Source of the DNA: Deltaproteobacteria bacterium ADurb.Bin207
GTDB lineage: Bacteria; Myxococcota_A; Polyangia; Polyangiales; Polyangiaceae
Direction of reading: 5' to 3'
Length of the DNA stretch: 64,000 nt
Assembly: GCA_002070115.1 (NCBI GenBank)
Contig: MWCO01000001.1
Location: 1 to 64,000, forward strand
Shown: one piece after another, positions 16,918-60,409 of the stretch
How positions within the stretch are numbered: position 1 is the stretch's first letter
Layout: every line of letters starts with the position of its first letter
The notes under the pieces: generated by a model
The model's input: only the letters and a program-made list of their open reading frames with translations
Told to the model about the DNA's origin: nothing
Database searches by the model: none
Made by a program: the position numbers and the translations under genes

Positions 16918-18012
16918 ATGATCGAGCTTCCCAAAAAGCTGCGCGTCGCTGTCCTCGGTGCCACGGGTATGGTCGGCCAACGATTCCTGGCCTTGCTCGA
17001 ACATCATCCGTGGTTCGACGTGACGCTGGTTGCCGCCAGCGGGCGTTCCGCTGGCTTATCGTATGCCGAGGCCGTCCACGATCGTTGGGCGTTGCCATCA
17101 CCCCTTCCCCCGTCTTTCGCTTCCTTGCCTGTCGCGGACGCCTCCAGCGTCAGCCAGATCGCCGATGAGGTGGACTTCGTGTTTTGCGCGGTGGACATGC
17201 CCAAAGACGCGATCGCGCGTCTCGAAGAAGCGTACGCAAAAGCAGAAACTCCTGTAATTTCAAATACTTCGGCTCATCGCACCACACCCGATGTGCCCAT
17301 GATCATCCCTGAAGTCAATCCGGAACACGCCAACGTCATTCCCGATCAGCGAAAGCGATTGGGCACGACGCGCGGGTTCATCGCGGTGAAACCCAATTGT
17401 TCGGTGCAAAGCTATGTGCCCGCGATTCATCCGCTGATGGACTTTCGCCCTCGGCATGTGGTCGTGAGCACCTATCAGGCCATCAGTGGCGCCGGTAAAA
17501 CGTTCGAATCCTGGCCGGAGATGCAAGACAACGTCATCCCTTTCATCGCTGGCGAAGAAGAAAAGTCCGAGCAAGAACCCAGAAAAATCTGGGGACGCCT
17601 CGCCCACGGGGTCATCGTCCCCAGCGCGCAACCCGTGATCAGCGCCCAATGCATACGAATTCCCGTGACCGATGGACACCTCGCCACTGTGTTCGTGGCT
17701 TTCGAAAAACGCCCTTGTCGCGAGGAAATCCTGGCTCGATGGCGGAACGGCACCAGTTTGCCCCAACGGCTGGGATTGCCCACGGCTCCCTGCCCCTGGC
17801 TCACCTACTTCGAACAAGATGCACGGCCGCAGACCAGACTCGACCGCGACCTCGGCAAAGGCATGGGCATCTCCGTGGGACGCCTTCGGACCGATTCCAT
17901 CTTCGACATTCGTTTCGTTGCCCTATCCCATAACACCGTCCGAGGAGCCGCCGGCGGCGCCGTGCTGACCGCGGAATGGCTCACCCACGAAGGCTATATC
18001 ACCGCCAAATAA
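16918..18012 (+). CDS. asd: Aspartate-semialdehyde dehydrogenase (archaeal/fungal-type subfamily)
   Basis: The enzyme reduces aspartyl phosphate to aspartate semialdehyde for the lysine, threonine and methionine branches. The N-terminal Rossmann motif VLGATGMVGQRF, VAASGRSAG, the catalytic-Cys block VKPNCSVQSYVPAIHPL and the His block RIPVTDGHLATVFVAF are all visible. The 364-residue length and the GQRF...HPWF wording fit the subfamily seen in archaea and fungi rather than the E. coli form. No clear Shine-Dalgarno precedes the ATG. The gene ends 10 bp from a convergent gene. Confidence 0.93.
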   Translation: MIELPKKLRVAVLGATGMVGQRFLALLEHHPWFDVTLVAASGRSAGLSYAEAVHDRWALPSPLPPSFASLPVADASSVSQIADEVDFVFCAVDMPKDAIARLEEAYAKAETPVISNTSAHRTTPDVPMIIPEVNPEHANVIPDQRKRLGTTRGFIAVKPNCSVQSYVPAIHPLMDFRPRHVVVSTYQAISGAGKTFESWPEMQDNVIPFIAGEEEKSEQEPRKIWGRLAHGVIVPSAQPVISAQCIRIPVTDGHLATVFVAFEKRPCREEILARWRNGTSLPQRLGLPTAPCPWLTYFEQDARPQTRLDRDLGKGMGISVGRLRTDSIFDIRFVALSHNTVRGAAGGAVLTAEWLTHEGYITAK

Positions 18013-18022
18013 CCTCTCGCCC

Positions 18023-20200
18023 TCAAGGTCGGTGCCGCACCCATACCGCGGTCGTCGCGTCCTCCGATACCTGCATCGTCGCACCGCTGTCTCCCACGCT
18101 TACCGCAAGGAAACTCAAGCCTCCCCGGCGCATCGAGGCGGGGTGTTGTGACCATGGCATGAGGCGATGAATCGGTCCTTTTTTCGACGAGTCCCGCACA
18201 TGCTCCCATCGCAGGGTGGGACCAAGGAAGCCTCCATATTTCGTATCCAGCACCGTGGGGGCAAATGCCGTTCGTGGATCCTTGGCTGTCGATGGCGCAA
18301 GCTTTCCATCCAGGTGAACCAGAAGTAGCGCCGTGGCAAAGTCCACGTACCAGGTAGAAACCGGTCGCCCATCCAAAGGGTGGATCCGATCCCATCCTTC
18401 TTGTCCCGCGGTGAATGCTTGTAGATAAGCCTTTCCTCCACCATCTTGGATGGTCGCGCCCCCATCGCTCACCACCATCGCCCCTGCCTGGTCGAATAGA
18501 TACTCCTGCACGAGGGTTCCGAATCCGTACGATGCCAGGTTGGCGGTGGCGTCCGCGAGATACGACGAGGCCGTCAAGCGCGCCAACGACGCTTCCTGCG
18601 GGTGTTCGAGGGCGGTTGTCACCGGCCATGCATGCGATTGCCCACTCCAGCCCATCACCAGGCTAGCCAATCCCTCCACCGCGTATATATCCGCTTCGAC
18701 CCAGGGGGGAATCGATTCCGGATCCGACAAAAACGGCTCCAGCCGCTGACTCAACACGATGAGCTGTGCCACCTCATGCGACATCAAGGTGGATGTTTCC
18801 CACACGGGCGCAGACTCATCGATACCGTGGGCATAAACGACCTCTCCATAATCATAGGACACGGAAAATGTCCCCGGCGCAAAGAGCGTGGCGGAAGGAT
18901 GACAGAACGCTTTGACAGCATCGGGGAGCACGTCCGTGAATAAAATATCAATCTTTCCATTGCCATCCACATCCGTCGGCTCGCCCACCATGGCCTTCGC
19001 GCGGGGAAGCACGGCATGGTCGAGACGATCCATCAACTCGTCCAACACGGTGTCGGGGACCAATGTCCCGGCGGAAGAGGTGCTCTGGTCTTCCCACACC
19101 CGCACGTGTTGACCGGAGGCACGCAGTGTTGCCGTGCGCGGGATGGTTTCTTCCCCTCCGGTTTCATAGCGAGGAACAAAAAAAGTACGTGTTTCCGCAT
19201 CGTTAGGTTCCGGCCCAGGCCGTGGGAAGACCGTGGCCGTTCTGCCTTTGCTCATGGGATAACCTCGCGACACGGCCGCGGGATCGGAGACCTTTTGCGG
19301 TTCGAGATGACGAAAGGTGGTAGTGACGGGATCCGAGATGGAACCATCGAGGTGCAGCGGATAGTCAACGAATTCATCGTTGGACGTGTCCGTATTGACC
19401 ACGACCACGGCGTATCTGCCTGGACTCACGGAAAACGGGCCATCGCTGCTCGTCACGCGGACCGTTTGTCCAAGGGGCATGGTGGATTTTTCACAAATAC
19501 CTTTGGAACAAGCTTCGTCGTCGGCGCAGGTCTCGATGATCTCTAACGACGTCCCGCTGGTATCGCAAACGAGGACTTGAAGGTAATCGTTGCTGCATTG
19601 CCTGTCGCCCGGTGAGCACAGGCGTGCCACGCATGTGGAACCAGTGGTTGTGGGAACACAGACGTGATTGCCTGGGCATGGTGTGTTGATGAACGAGAGT
19701 CGATCGGGTGCGCACGTCGAGCGATCGGGATCCGTCGGACCTTTTTCACAACGAGATTCTCCGGAGGCGCAAACCGGATCCACGCATGCCCCGCTCGAGG
19801 CGTCGCAAACTTGCAAGCCCGCACAAGGTTCGAGCGCCCATCTTTTTCCATCGGCCGCGCATACCGCACGAGCGGCGGTTCCTGGACTTCCTTCGCAACG
19901 GGCGGAGCCTGGTTCGCATCCCGTATCCACGCTTTCGCAAGACCCGGTGGTAACGTTGCACGTTGTCCCCGTCGGACACATTTGCGAAAACCAGCCGCGA
20001 CCGTCGGCCCGGCATATCTCCACACTCCCGTCATGTTGCGAAGAGCATCGTTGGCTAGCCGGTGTACAAGCCTCGCCGGGAATCGCCGGGGGCACATCCA
20101 TCGGGTTTGGATCCGAAGACGTGCATCCGAAAAAGGGGATGCACAAGCTGAGCCCCAGACAAGCAGACAAGCAAGCGCGATGACAAGAATACACTTTCAT
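18023..20200 (-). CDS. Cys-rich secreted lipoprotein with degenerate M30-like metallopeptidase domain
   Basis: The 725-residue product starts MKVYSCHRACLSACLG and has a probable lipobox IPFFGC. Residues ~30-230 carry about five repeats of a Cys module (CxPGxxRC ... C...W...C...C) with several Cys pairs each. The following part has DVDGNGKIDILFTDVLPDA, then SHEVAQLI around residue 475 and WVEADIYAVEGLASLV, which resembles the layout of M30 (hyicolysin-like) peptidases: a DVDGNGK segment, HExxH, then W..EG. Here the zinc motif reads HEVAQ, so the second His is missing and the domain is probably inactive or binds metal differently. The family call is tentative. I start at 20200; the frame continues 46 codons upstream without a signal peptide. 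Confidence 0.6.
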   Translation of the reverse strand: MKVYSCHRACLSACLGLSLCIPFFGCTSSDPNPMDVPPAIPGEACTPASQRCSSQHDGSVEICRADGRGWFSQMCPTGTTCNVTTGSCESVDTGCEPGSARCEGSPGTAARAVCAADGKRWALEPCAGLQVCDASSGACVDPVCASGESRCEKGPTDPDRSTCAPDRLSFINTPCPGNHVCVPTTTGSTCVARLCSPGDRQCSNDYLQVLVCDTSGTSLEIIETCADDEACSKGICEKSTMPLGQTVRVTSSDGPFSVSPGRYAVVVVNTDTSNDEFVDYPLHLDGSISDPVTTTFRHLEPQKVSDPAAVSRGYPMSKGRTATVFPRPGPEPNDAETRTFFVPRYETGGEETIPRTATLRASGQHVRVWEDQSTSSAGTLVPDTVLDELMDRLDHAVLPRAKAMVGEPTDVDGNGKIDILFTDVLPDAVKAFCHPSATLFAPGTFSVSYDYGEVVYAHGIDESAPVWETSTLMSHEVAQLIVLSQRLEPFLSDPESIPPWVEADIYAVEGLASLVMGWSGQSHAWPVTTALEHPQEASLARLTASSYLADATANLASYGFGTLVQEYLFDQAGAMVVSDGGATIQDGGGKAYLQAFTAGQEGWDRIHPLDGRPVSTWYVDFATALLLVHLDGKLAPSTAKDPRTAFAPTVLDTKYGGFLGPTLRWEHVRDSSKKGPIHRLMPWSQHPASMRRGGLSFLAVSVGDSGATMQVSEDATTAVWVRHRP

Positions 20201-20371: not shown

Positions 20372-21385
20372 TCAATACTGCGAAAGAGGCGTGGGCATGA
20401 AGAGCAACACGAACAGTAGCAAAGTGCCAATGGCGATGGCTTTTCGTCCCCGGCTCAATTCTCCTGGCTCCGTGGGAGGGTGATTCCCTCCGGACAAGGC
20501 TCGAAGCAGAAAGAGAAACCCAAACCACACCAACCAAAACATCGACATCTCCGCGGCGCGACCCACGGTTTGCCCAAGGGGTTCCGTCTGGAAATGGCGT
20601 AGGAAGTGATAACCAAAATTCACTGCAAATACAGCTAGTAAGCCATAATGCACCATACGCGCGATCGCGTTTTGACGAGGACCAATGAGCGCGTACGCCA
20701 CATGACCTCCATCGAGTTGACCCACGGGCACCAGATTGATCATGGTGATCAACAGTCCAACCCATCCCGCGAACGCCGTGGGATGAAGGAATACGTCGCT
20801 CCCTTCCGGAATGGGTCCCACGGTCAATCGTTTCAACAAGGAATACAGCAGGCATTGCCCTTCGAGCAGCCCCGAACCCGTGATCTCCTTCACCTCGGAA
20901 TGCAGCAAACCCCAAACGAGGATGGGCACGGCGAAGACCATGCCCGCCAACGGTCCGGAGGCTCCGATATCGAGCAAGGCTTTTCGAGAACCAATGCGTC
21001 CTTTCATGGAAATGATGGCTCCCATCGTTCCGAAAGGACTGATCGGCATGGGAATGAAATATGGCAAAGAGGCATGAACGCGATGCCAACGTGCCGCGAT
21101 GTAGTGTCCAAATTCATGCGCGAGCAAGATCACCATCAGCGGTACGGCGAACGTCCATCCCTTCCATAGATTCGCCAGTGTCAGGGGTTCATCGCCGAGC
21201 AATAGCTCTTGATTGCCGGCGAAAAGCACGCTGATCACGGTGGCGACAAACAGGCCGAGATGTATCGCATAACGATTCCGACGAGGAGGCTCGGGAGGTA
21301 CGCCCGAAACGGGCTCCGGGGATGCGCCTTCGAATACCGAACGCTGGACGTCGGGCGCTGGCGGAGGAAAGTGCGGTGTACTCAT
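20372..21385 (-). CDS. M50-family site-2-type intramembrane metalloprotease
   Basis: Site-2 proteases cut membrane-embedded substrates, often transmembrane regulators. The 337-residue protein has a Pro-rich N-terminus followed by several membrane segments. The zinc motif HEFGH (in ILLAHEFGHYIAA) and the second-site motif NLVPVGQLDGGH are both intact, so it should be active. Its start overlaps the stop of the SctL/FliH-like gene (ATGA), which points to coupled synthesis. The substrate is unknown. Confidence 0.88.
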   Translation of the reverse strand: MSTPHFPPPAPDVQRSVFEGASPEPVSGVPPEPPRRNRYAIHLGLFVATVISVLFAGNQELLLGDEPLTLANLWKGWTFAVPLMVILLAHEFGHYIAARWHRVHASLPYFIPMPISPFGTMGAIISMKGRIGSRKALLDIGASGPLAGMVFAVPILVWGLLHSEVKEITGSGLLEGQCLLYSLLKRLTVGPIPEGSDVFLHPTAFAGWVGLLITMINLVPVGQLDGGHVAYALIGPRQNAIARMVHYGLLAVFAVNFGYHFLRHFQTEPLGQTVGRAAEMSMFWLVWFGFLFLLRALSGGNHPPTEPGELSRGRKAIAIGTLLLFVLLFMPTPLSQY

Positions 21386-22068
21386 GGATAGATTCGATTT
21401 CCCAACTCCTGTCGGATAACCTCGACGAGCCGATCGAGTTGCGGCGCCAACTCGCCATCCAATTCCCCCAAATCACTCATGAACCGCAAGCTTCCTCGTT
21501 GTCTGCTGTCATCGGCCCTGATCTCGATTCGTTCCGGAGGCATTCCAAACGTTGTGACGTGCTTCGTCAACATGGGCACATCGTGTGGATGGGCATGGAT
21601 GACCACCCGATGGGACCTCCAGAGATGAACCATCGCCTCTTTTGCCATGTCGGCGATCAACTCCGGATCAAGCTCCAACGATTTTCCCAGCAGCCTTTCT
21701 GCAAGCAATCGAGCAATGGCGATCGTTCTTTCCGTGGACTCGACGTCGAGAGTTGCTTCACGCCGCTCGAGGTTCAACCAGGCAGCGGCCAGCTTGGCAG
21801 CCCCATCCGCGACTCCTCGCTGTTCGGCTTCTCGACGAACTTCCTCGGCATCTCGTTGCGCCTGTTGCATCAACTCCTGTGCTTGTTGCCGCGCGACGGC
21901 AAGTATTCCCGACCGTTCTTCCGAAATCTCCAACCGCTCTCGTCGAACGATTCTTCCGCGCGCCCCTTGGGCAACCATACCGCATGCGGGCAACGTCGGA
22001 AGCGATGAAAGAGTCAGCGAAGTCATCGATGGTCCGTCACGCACGATGCGTCCCCGTCCTGGTGTCAT
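21382..22068 (-). CDS. FliH/SctL (YscL, HrpE)-family stator-like protein
   Basis: This family binds and restrains the secretion ATPase of flagellar and type III export systems. The 228-residue protein has a long heptad-like, charged N-terminal helix (residues ~45-95, AQELMQQAQRDAEEVRREA), then the family C-domain with LAERLLGKSLELDPELIADM and the ending GSLRFMSDLGELDGELAPQLDRLVEVIR. No ATPase or other export gene lies nearby. It overlaps the 85-residue gene upstream and the M50 protease downstream by ATGA junctions. A GGAG 6 bases upstream supports the ATG at 22068. Confidence 0.75.
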   Translation of the reverse strand: MTPGRGRIVRDGPSMTSLTLSSLPTLPACGMVAQGARGRIVRRERLEISEERSGILAVARQQAQELMQQAQRDAEEVRREAEQRGVADGAAKLAAAWLNLERREATLDVESTERTIAIARLLAERLLGKSLELDPELIADMAKEAMVHLWRSHRVVIHAHPHDVPMLTKHVTTFGMPPERIEIRADDSRQRGSLRFMSDLGELDGELAPQLDRLVEVIRQELGNRIYP

Positions 22069-22322
22069 CGAAGGCTCCAGCTTTCGAGTTGTACCGACAG
22101 CTTTCCCAAGTAGGCGGCTAGCGCTCGGGCTCGACGATCCCGGTCCGTGTCACGCAGCATGCGAATCAGATCTTCGATCGGTTTGAGATTTGCCGGATCC
22201 TGCTTATGCGTTTCCAAAAAATCTATTGAATTTTCCAATAGATAGAGTGTCGCCGCGGCAACTCCCGCCGCCTCGTGATCCTCGTTGCACTGACTCATCA
22301 ATCCCATGTCATGACCGCTCAT
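22065..22322 (-). CDS. Small protein of unknown function in the SctL-protease operon
   Basis: The 85-residue product has no recognised domain. It is predicted to be mostly helical (AAGVAAATLYLLENSIDFLE, IEDLIRMLRDTDRDRRARAL), without a signal peptide. Its stop overlaps the start of the SctL-like gene (ATGA), so it is likely to act with that protein, perhaps as a partner or chaperone. Its middle is locally AT-rich compared with its neighbours. Confidence 0.6.
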   Translation of the reverse strand: MSGHDMGLMSQCNEDHEAAGVAAATLYLLENSIDFLETHKQDPANLKPIEDLIRMLRDTDRDRRARALAAYLGKLSVQLESWSLR

Positions 22323-59368: not shown

Positions 59369-59674
59369 TCACTGGCTTTGAAGCGTGGTTTTTACCGCGG
59401 ATGCCGTTCGGTCGACGAGCTTAGCGCACAATTCGATGGCTTCGACGTAGCGATACACGCCCGCTTGTAAAGCAATCATTCCGCGCGCGTCATCTTCTTG
59501 CGATCCCATGGATAAAGCGGCGTGAACGACACGCTCTCCTCGATCCACCTCCCTTGCCAACTGATGGAAAACATCGCGAAACGAGCGGGAATTGGACGAA
59601 GGATCGATCGTTGACGTCGAGCCGGAAGAGGCAAGGATGGGACGAGCACAGGATTGATAGCGAACGATGTCCAT
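59369..59674 (-). CDS. Type III secretion inner-rod-like (SctI) small protein
   Basis: The 101-residue protein ends GMIALQAGVYRYVEAIELCAKLVDRTASAVKTTLQSQ, resembling the C-terminal segment of type III inner-rod proteins (SctI/YscI), in which an LQ..V..YS..VEL..KLVD.A...VKTTLQ pattern forms the assembly helix. The N-terminal half is Ser-rich. I start at the ATG at 59674 with AAGGAG just upstream. It follows a FliA-like sigma factor gene on the same strand. No other export gene is near; the family call is tentative. Confidence 0.55.
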   Translation of the reverse strand: MDIVRYQSCARPILASSGSTSTIDPSSNSRSFRDVFHQLAREVDRGERVVHAALSMGSQEDDARGMIALQAGVYRYVEAIELCAKLVDRTASAVKTTLQSQ

Positions 59675-59737
59675 GGGCGCTCCTTGGGTGCTCTTTTCCT
59701 TCGGCCAAACCCTGGCGTGGGTTGCGTCGAATGACAA

Positions 59738-60409
59738 TTACAATCTCGATTGCATTCTTCGCGAGAGCTTGGTGATCGCGCGTGCGAGAATGCGAGATCC
59801 CCACGACTTTGACAGCCCGAGGGATGCGGCGATCGTGTCGATATTTTCGTCGAGAAAAAAGTGACGACGAACGAAAAGCTCTTCCTGTGGCGTGAGGTTC
59901 GGGAGTTCTTGATGAACCAGTTGCATCAACTCCTGCGTTTCGAGGGAGGAATCGGGACTGTCGACGGATAAGGCGACGCGTTCGCCATCGAGTACCGACT
60001 CCTGACCGCTGAATCCAAGGGCCATCGCCGTGGCGAGAACCGCGAGGTGGTCGGATAGGCGTTGGTCCGTGTCTTCAGGAGAAAGACCACGGATGGCAGC
60101 GTCTTGGGAATCATCGAAAAATCCAGAAGCTACGACATTGGCGGCCTGAAGAGCGCGTACTTTTTCATGAGCGCGACGGGGAAGGGCGCTACAAGAACGC
60201 ATTCCGTCGAGGATGGCACCTCGCACGCGATAATAGGCGTATCGTCGAAAAGGAATTCCGCGGTCCGGCTCGTATCGACGAGCTGCCATGAGCAGCCCTT
60301 CATGACCGAAACTCGCAAGTTCACGAACGTCGATGATATCGCTCACTTCGCGGTAAAGTTGTTTCGCAACAACGTCCACGAGGGTCAACTCACGATGGAA
60401 TCTTTCCAT
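59738..60409 (-). CDS. FliA/WhiG-type sigma factor
   Basis: The protein has sigma-70 region 2 (IDVRELASFGHEGLLMAARRYEPDRGIPFRRYAYYRVRGAILD) and region 4 (ELPNLTPQEELFVRRHFFLD, IAASLGLSKSWGSRILARAI), the RpoF/FliA-like compact layout. I start at the ATG at 60409 (223 residues), where homology begins; a GTG nine codons earlier is possible. The neighbouring type III inner-rod-like gene suggests control of an export-like set, but this is an inference. Confidence 0.8.
   Translation of the reverse strand: MERFHRELTLVDVVAKQLYREVSDIIDVRELASFGHEGLLMAARRYEPDRGIPFRRYAYYRVRGAILDGMRSCSALPRRAHEKVRALQAANVVASGFFDDSQDAAIRGLSPEDTDQRLSDHLAVLATAMALGFSGQESVLDGERVALSVDSPDSSLETQELMQLVHQELPNLTPQEELFVRRHFFLDENIDTIAASLGLSKSWGSRILARAITKLSRRMQSRL

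Follow-up and report, generated by a model that had tools for sequence, protein, structure and literature searches.

The first 64,000 nucleotides (nt) of contig MWCO01000001.1 of Deltaproteobacteria bacterium ADurb.Bin207 (this whole stretch is called the window below) contain, side by side on the minus strand, a gene for a FliA/WhiG-type σ factor and a gene for a small protein resembling SctI, the inner rod subunit of type III secretion systems (T3SSs). It appears probable, from sequence comparison, that a non-flagellar T3SS here has taken over a FliA-type σ for the timing of its export substrates. The two genes stay together in relatives despite rearrangement, and a conserved σ28-like promoter motif, which is new here, stands before sctI; because that motif precedes sctI and an operon of substrate-like genes, and not the genes of the basal machine, the σ factor most likely sets the timing of the export substrates. 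The elements concerned are:

59369 to 59674, minus strand: sctI-like gene, 101 amino acids, inner-rod-type type III subunit by its family-level SctI matches
59698 to 59727, minus strand: σ28-like promoter motif ACGCAACC-N12-TGGCCGAAGG, score 15.4, in the gap between the σ gene and sctI
59738 to 60409, minus strand: gene of a FliA/WhiG-type σ factor, 223 amino acids, frame counted from MERFHREL (TIGR02479, 97.2 bits)

The pair of open reading frames (ORFs) is present where the first-pass annotation of this DNA had placed it, between 59369 and 60409, the C-terminal pattern of the small protein included; 63 nt separate the σ gene from sctI, and no other neighbour of sctI in the window is a type III gene. 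The best NCBIfam match of the σ factor is TIGR02479 (FliA_WhiG; E 1.2e-27), at a score short of the curated cut-off of 189.6; all 22 aligned members of its family (21 relatives picked by gene-call length, and the window protein) match the same model at E<=0.001, the best at 4.9e-39, so that its description as FliA-like stands. Among 51 named sctI loci, 40 have a σ homologue no further than 3 kb from the gene, in several arrangements; of the 11 that lack one nearby, two have sctV close at hand, and in at least two (L164, L182) sctI lies less than 350 nt from the end of its contig. The relatives' short loci, a set overlapping with the 51, yield a σ homologue in 22 of 29 cases. The σ gene may be upstream of sctI on the same strand or may face it on the opposite strand: since both are found across loci, the link between the two genes outlasts rearrangement, and the pairing is beyond chance.

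A profile of the sctI family (A1) matches 40 of the 96 genomes of relatives (or 41 of 97 with the source genome counted), once in each, the weakest at E 3.2e-25; the remaining 56 genomes have no match at E<=0.01. The 51 named loci bear titles such as Myxococcales, Polyangiaceae, Labilithrix, Sorangium, Nannocystis or Deltaproteobacteria, with one "uncultured bacterium"; 50 of these are titles of metagenome-assembled genomes (MAGs), and the remaining one belongs to a lichen MAG set. Some of the same organisms may have flagellar genes as well. In a dozen of the loci L087-L116, an FlhF-like gene (judged by eye) comes after several of the full-length FlhA-type genes, and in 5 of those 30 loci another FliA-like σ begins. 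Because of these sightings, some relatives with the sctI pair (G006, G010 and G013, for example) seem to own a flagellar FliA too.

The promoter motif emerged from a k-mer search upstream of 17 sctI genes without a co-directional σ gene, which returned CGCAACC and GGTCGA. A two-block matrix built from 67 non-redundant sctI upstreams (out of 92) has the consensus aCGCAAC(C/T)-N11/12-cGG(C/T)CGA. Scores of at least 8 are reached by 57 of the 67 sctI upstreams and by 2 of 575 other upstreams (Fisher 2e-68, on the training set), and in five-fold hold-out by 56 of 67, while the background (575 upstreams, each scored with five models) reaches them in 11 of 2875 cases. (A technical note: a matrix trained likewise on random upstreams from the background also brings 13-16 of 67 to this threshold; the training-set counts are for that reason inflated, and the held-out counts are preferred.) In the window the motif ends 23 nt upstream of the sctI ATG. 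Read as CAAC-n14/15-GCCGA, its spacing and its -10 half fit the E. coli σ28 consensus, given as TAAAGTTT-n11-GCCGATAA in PMC2859248. The start codon, as chosen by script, follows the motif by only 5-8 nt in 20 of 36 relatives with a sctI motif of at least 8, which suggests that sctI messages in such relatives are leaderless. A σ28-like promoter motif, which the first-pass annotation had proposed looking for before type III genes, thus exists before sctI. The canonical version of that proposal fared worse: the full enteric consensus (TAAA-n15-GCCGATAA) is not enriched before the σ genes, sctV, sctI or the T3SS genes of the source genome, searching for k-mers and dyads upstream of sctV and those T3SS genes yielded no convincing candidate, and upstream of the σ genes only a single 7-mer, in 6 of 24.

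What else does the motif precede? A scan of 84 relatives' loci (1.15 Mb, selected to limit duplicates) finds 58 sites scoring at least 11, of which 48 are those of sctI. Three of the other ten are followed, after 17-21 nt, by genes of a putative substrate operon that the matrix had not seen (o155 in L169; o63 in L056 and in L164); further upstreams in this operon score 8.0 (o155 in L056) and 10.9 (o63 in L169), while that of o155 in L164 falls off the contig. The order in L056 is sctV, o155, sctI, o119, o170, o63, o208, a TPR chaperone, o358, o263, the chaperone being LcrH/SycD-like (TIGR02552, E 5.8e-9). The source genome has its own version of the operon, which lies on contig C1 at a distance of about 181 kb past the pair in the window: a motif scoring 13.3 stands 47 nt before a 71-amino-acid ORF, which is followed by genes for a 227-amino-acid homologue of o208 (9e-11), a 129-amino-acid chaperone (69.9 bits to the LcrH/SycD model TIGR02552, E 1.6e-19, the cut-off of 104.8 not being reached), a 401-amino-acid protein with hydrophobic stretches (judged by eye) and a 196-amino-acid protein weakly matching o263 (0.016). 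Profiles of o155 and o119 have no match at E<=0.1 in 1.37 Mb of the source genome's sequence; those of o170, o63 and o358 have weak matches (0.023, 0.0044 and 0.022, respectively) outside the operon. The same 1.37 Mb hold 23 sites scoring at least 11, 18 of them inside called genes and five intergenic; the five are those of sctI, the C1 operon and three others. Reversed sequence gives 4 such sites vs the 23 real ones, an imperfect control because reversal alters dinucleotides.

Some observations on single genes and sites can be added. The C-terminal ends of o155 (L056:4636-5103, minus strand) and o208 (L056:2623-3249, minus strand) are homologous, and their profiles cross-match; the 227-amino-acid homologue in the source genome has a weak needle-family match at its C-terminal end (PF09392, E 0.83). 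From their sequences, o155 and o208 may be related filament or tip subunits. A fold comparison with the 227-amino-acid tip-like protein (predicted local distance difference test score, pLDDT, 60.7, from 4 sequences) lists many coiled coils, with the EspA filament (7k7k_A) only at rank 47 (Z 8.6, root-mean-square deviation 5.2, 156 aligned), a placing that settles nothing; a PDB search with its profile brings up no chain of a T3SS at E<=10. On contig C11 of the source genome, a site scoring 14.2 (L191:10618-10647, plus strand) lies roughly 600 nt downstream of sctQ, and a ComF-like gene follows 5 nt after its end. On contig C36 (L245:16702, minus strand), a site scoring 15.1, near sctI's own score, lies 29 nt before a called gene of 141 amino acids, a longer frame of which would start 8 nt after the motif.

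If the pair serves a T3SS, where is the rest of the machine? The source genome (6.55 Mb in 220 contigs, 97% complete, 4.4% contamination) contains it in pieces, mostly one gene per locus: SctV, in two stretches of one gene, is on C94; SctN, the only one of five ATPase matches above cut-off, on C9; SctR, with FliO adjoining, on C36; SctJ on C3; SctU on C46; SctT on C61; SctQ on C11. A further piece is in the window itself:

21382 to 22068, minus strand: sctL/fliH-like stator gene (PF02108 FliH, 51.7 bits; gathering threshold 24.1)

This gene also matches the SctL model TIGR02499 at 46.1 bits (cut-off 78.7). With sctI and the C1 operon included, the type III loci number ten. The dispersed type III-like machine imagined from the window alone is accordingly there, SctN and SctV among its parts, and so is the SctL-like gene that had been named as a member of it. 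An 85-amino-acid ORF (22065-22322, minus strand) that overlaps the start of the sctL-like gene matches nothing in Pfam or NCBIfam at E<=0.1, and is possibly an unrecognised part.

The machine is judged to be non-flagellar from its scores, the export gate and ATPase being nearer to Sct than to flagellar models: SctV 693.0 vs FlhA 573.2, SctR 207.8 vs FliP 173.3, SctU 210.9 vs FlhB 188.1, SctT 62.9 vs FliR 36.5 and, narrowly, SctN 570.0 vs FliI 561.9; likewise SctJ 141.0 vs FliF 37.4 and SctQ 87.3 vs FliN 53.8. The Sct equivalog cut-off is passed by SctV only. The rod/hook domain PF00460 has no match in the source genome at E<=0.001 (the control was positive in 4 of 14 genomes; flagellin was not searched). 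Within the organism's own family, and among the matches listed, the two-stretch (FHIPEP) type of SctV occurs in 23 of 26 relatives with sctI vs 11 of 33 without it (Fisher p 2e-5; counted by hand, with divergent partial matches taken as absent).

Dispersal is not a recent accident, at least for sctV. Gene calls recovered sctV in 19 of 21 sctV stretches (20 relatives and the source genome); a D-Ala-D-Ala-ligase-like gene neighbours it in 16 of the 21 and a PP2C-like gene in 14 (named by eye), and none of the source genome's other T3SS references (SctT and SctQ not included) was labelled alongside. Because the same non-T3SS neighbours recur in relatives, sctV must have parted from the other T3SS genes long ago; for the same reason contamination of the assembly was set aside as the source of the dispersal. 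The C94 contig also carries CpaF-like and TadB-like genes, of the Tad pilus type as judged by eye, at distances of about 9 and 12 kb from sctV (L010:13969-15096 and 17493-18365, minus strand).

That the small protein is SctI-like is settled at the level of its family, as judged from profiles. Its ORF probably starts at the ATG at 59674, with AAGGAG 5 nt upstream, and its C-terminal end (...MIALQAGVYRYVEAIELCAKLVDRTASAVKTTLQSQ) belongs to a conserved block, LLALQAGVYRYxEAVDLASKLVDRAxxAVKTxLQ in consensus, the first third of the family's proteins being variable. Taken singly, the window protein scores 13-14 bits (14.0 on NCBIfam NF038054) against SctI and fails the curated cut-off of 39, although it is the sole match when its own genome is searched for SctI (among the matches listed at E<=10). 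Its family does not fail: at E<=0.1, NF038054 is matched by 28 of 41 members (best 1.6e-7), TIGR02497 by 16 (best 0.0022) and the Pfam inner-rod model PF17001 by 21 (best 4.6e-5), and in two MAGs (L056/L158, which are one contig, and L169) sctI lies downstream of sctV in the same orientation, a single small gene separating the two. Thus the inner-rod assignment of the first-pass annotation holds for the family and not for the single protein. Might the protein be another axial subunit, a needle protein (SctF) or a FliE-like rod protein? The needle family PF09392 is indeed matched by 6 of the 41 members (best 7.2e-4) and the needle model TIGR02105 by 1, and when the AlphaFold2 model, a two-helix hairpin (pLDDT 82.8), is compared with known structures, FliE-containing entries tie with inner-rod chains and with unrelated hairpins (MxiI chain 8axk_O: Z 7.8, root-mean-square deviation 7.0, 90 aligned, 18% identity), so that the fold is not decisive either way. 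The SctI models, however, match more members and match them more strongly, and the first PDB chain found by the family profile is MxiI, the Shigella inner rod protein (E 0.0059), aligned at its C-terminal end, with a designed repeat protein close behind (E 0.0068). A different axial subunit is, in our estimate, quite improbable.

The proposal that the σ factor times the substrates has to be set against several observations that weigh upon it. The -35 half of the motif, CGCAAC, differs from the enteric TAAA. A score of 8 is not reached by ten of the 67 sctI upstreams, which include those of the operon group (L158, L164 and L169); seven are below 3 (these three, L181, L185, L187 and L078). Within 200 nt upstream of eight genes or gene pairs of the source genome's basal machine (SctV, SctN, FliO-SctR, SctJ, SctU, ORF85-SctL, SctT, SctQ) the motif does not exceed 5.0, and before the σ gene itself it scores only 3.2; in relatives, 22 of 24 σ-gene upstreams score below 5, the others 6.9 and 7.2. 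The two-stretch SctV is still seen in 11 of the 33 family relatives that lack this sctI; the three remaining intergenic sites of the source genome precede genes without a known type III link; and the 71- and 401-amino-acid genes are assigned to the C1 operon by position alone, without a match from the MAG profiles. The basal upstreams give no support to the first-pass suggestion that the σ factor governs the whole machine: in the source genome its control appears to be confined to the substrates, sctI and the tip/chaperone/translocator-like operon. Some of these points could also mean that the motif is a real regulatory element read by another factor, an activator or a different σ, and that the FliA-like gene has other targets: the σ gene usually lacks the motif, the -35 half is unlike known FliA sites, and three MAGs have the motif before substrate genes with no σ homologue on the stretches examined. 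Yet the half-sites have σ28-type spacing and a σ28-type -10 element and stand beside a gene whose family is throughout of FliA/WhiG type, and the σ-sctI pairing is maintained despite rearrangement; another reader of the motif is improbable. What the system does is a separate matter. It might resemble the T3SS* of Myxococcus, in which a basal machine with neither needle nor translocon of its own aids a pilus in prey lysis: sctI loci elsewhere bear myxobacterial and deltaproteobacterial titles, CpaF/TadB-like genes lie within reach of sctV on C94, and FliO and an inner rod are reported in Myxococcus systems (PMC12403147 and PMC3459982). However, an LcrH/SycD-type chaperone and translocator-like proteins share sctI's motif here, whereas T3SS* is described, in PMC12075869, as having no secretin, needle or translocon. 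A T3SS*-like function is possible, if on the unlikely side.

The σ factor as a timer of substrates would work as follows. The basal machine (SctV, SctN, SctR with FliO, SctJ, SctU, SctT, SctQ and SctL) would be made from its own scattered, motif-less promoters. The FliA-type σ would steer RNA polymerase to CGCAACY-N11/12-cGGYCGA promoters and so switch on sctI and the operon of tip/filament-like, LcrH/SycD-type chaperone and translocator-like proteins. The exported parts would then appear after the export gate, as with FliA and the late flagellar genes, to complete an injecting structure that presumably secretes into a target cell. A bolder version, which we consider unlikely, has the flagellar checkpoint itself kept in an injectisome: only with a functioning basal body would the machine export an anti-σ and so free the FliA-type σ to act on the genes for rod, tip and translocon. 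If that were true, the motif would amount to a list of what the system exports, its effectors included, and these lineages, having kept FliO and the σ, would be living flagellum-injectisome intermediates.

Comparison with known systems places these findings. Abby and Rocha (2012) found the T3SSs of Myxococcales, with the inner rod among their parts, basal among non-flagellar systems and only in Cystobacterineae (PMC3459982); Herrou (2025) describes the T3SS* of M. xanthus as clustered and needleless (PMC12075869). A Tad-like pilus cooperates with T3SS* in Myxococcus. The present system shares with the Cystobacterineae type a non-flagellar export gate, ATPase, SctJ and inner rod (PMC3459982), and FliO here is not new, since it was already known in non-flagellar systems of Myxococcota (PMC12403147). 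It differs in that the Cystobacterineae genes are clustered (mxan_2434-2464) whereas here they occupy ten or more loci, and in having a FliA-type σ beside sctI and an operon with an LcrH/SycD-type chaperone (PMC3459982, PMC12075869). Chlamydia also has T3SS genes in several loci and a σ28 (PMC12282069, PMC10597470, PMC3459982), but its σ28 regulon is reported as hctB and tsp only, with σ54 tied to the T3SS genes (PMC12282069, PMC10597470); that its T3SS might export an anti-σ28 is a speculation offered in PMC10597470. Searches of the open-licence PMC literature brought up no FliA-type σ assigned to a non-flagellar T3SS; here one is tied to such a system by a conserved pairing and a common promoter motif. 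With genes so scattered, gene neighbourhood is no guide to the substrates of this system, and the motif offers a direct means of looking for them in uncultured Myxococcota. Compared with flagellar FliA itself, the σ is of the same FliA/WhiG type, and the -10 half (GCCGA) and spacing of its putative sites are near the E. coli consensus (PMC2859248), but CGCAAC takes the place of TAAA at -35 and the targets found are type III substrates instead of flagellar genes. One part of the flagellum-to-injectisome question thereby becomes testable: whether or not the control of late substrates was inherited together with the machine.
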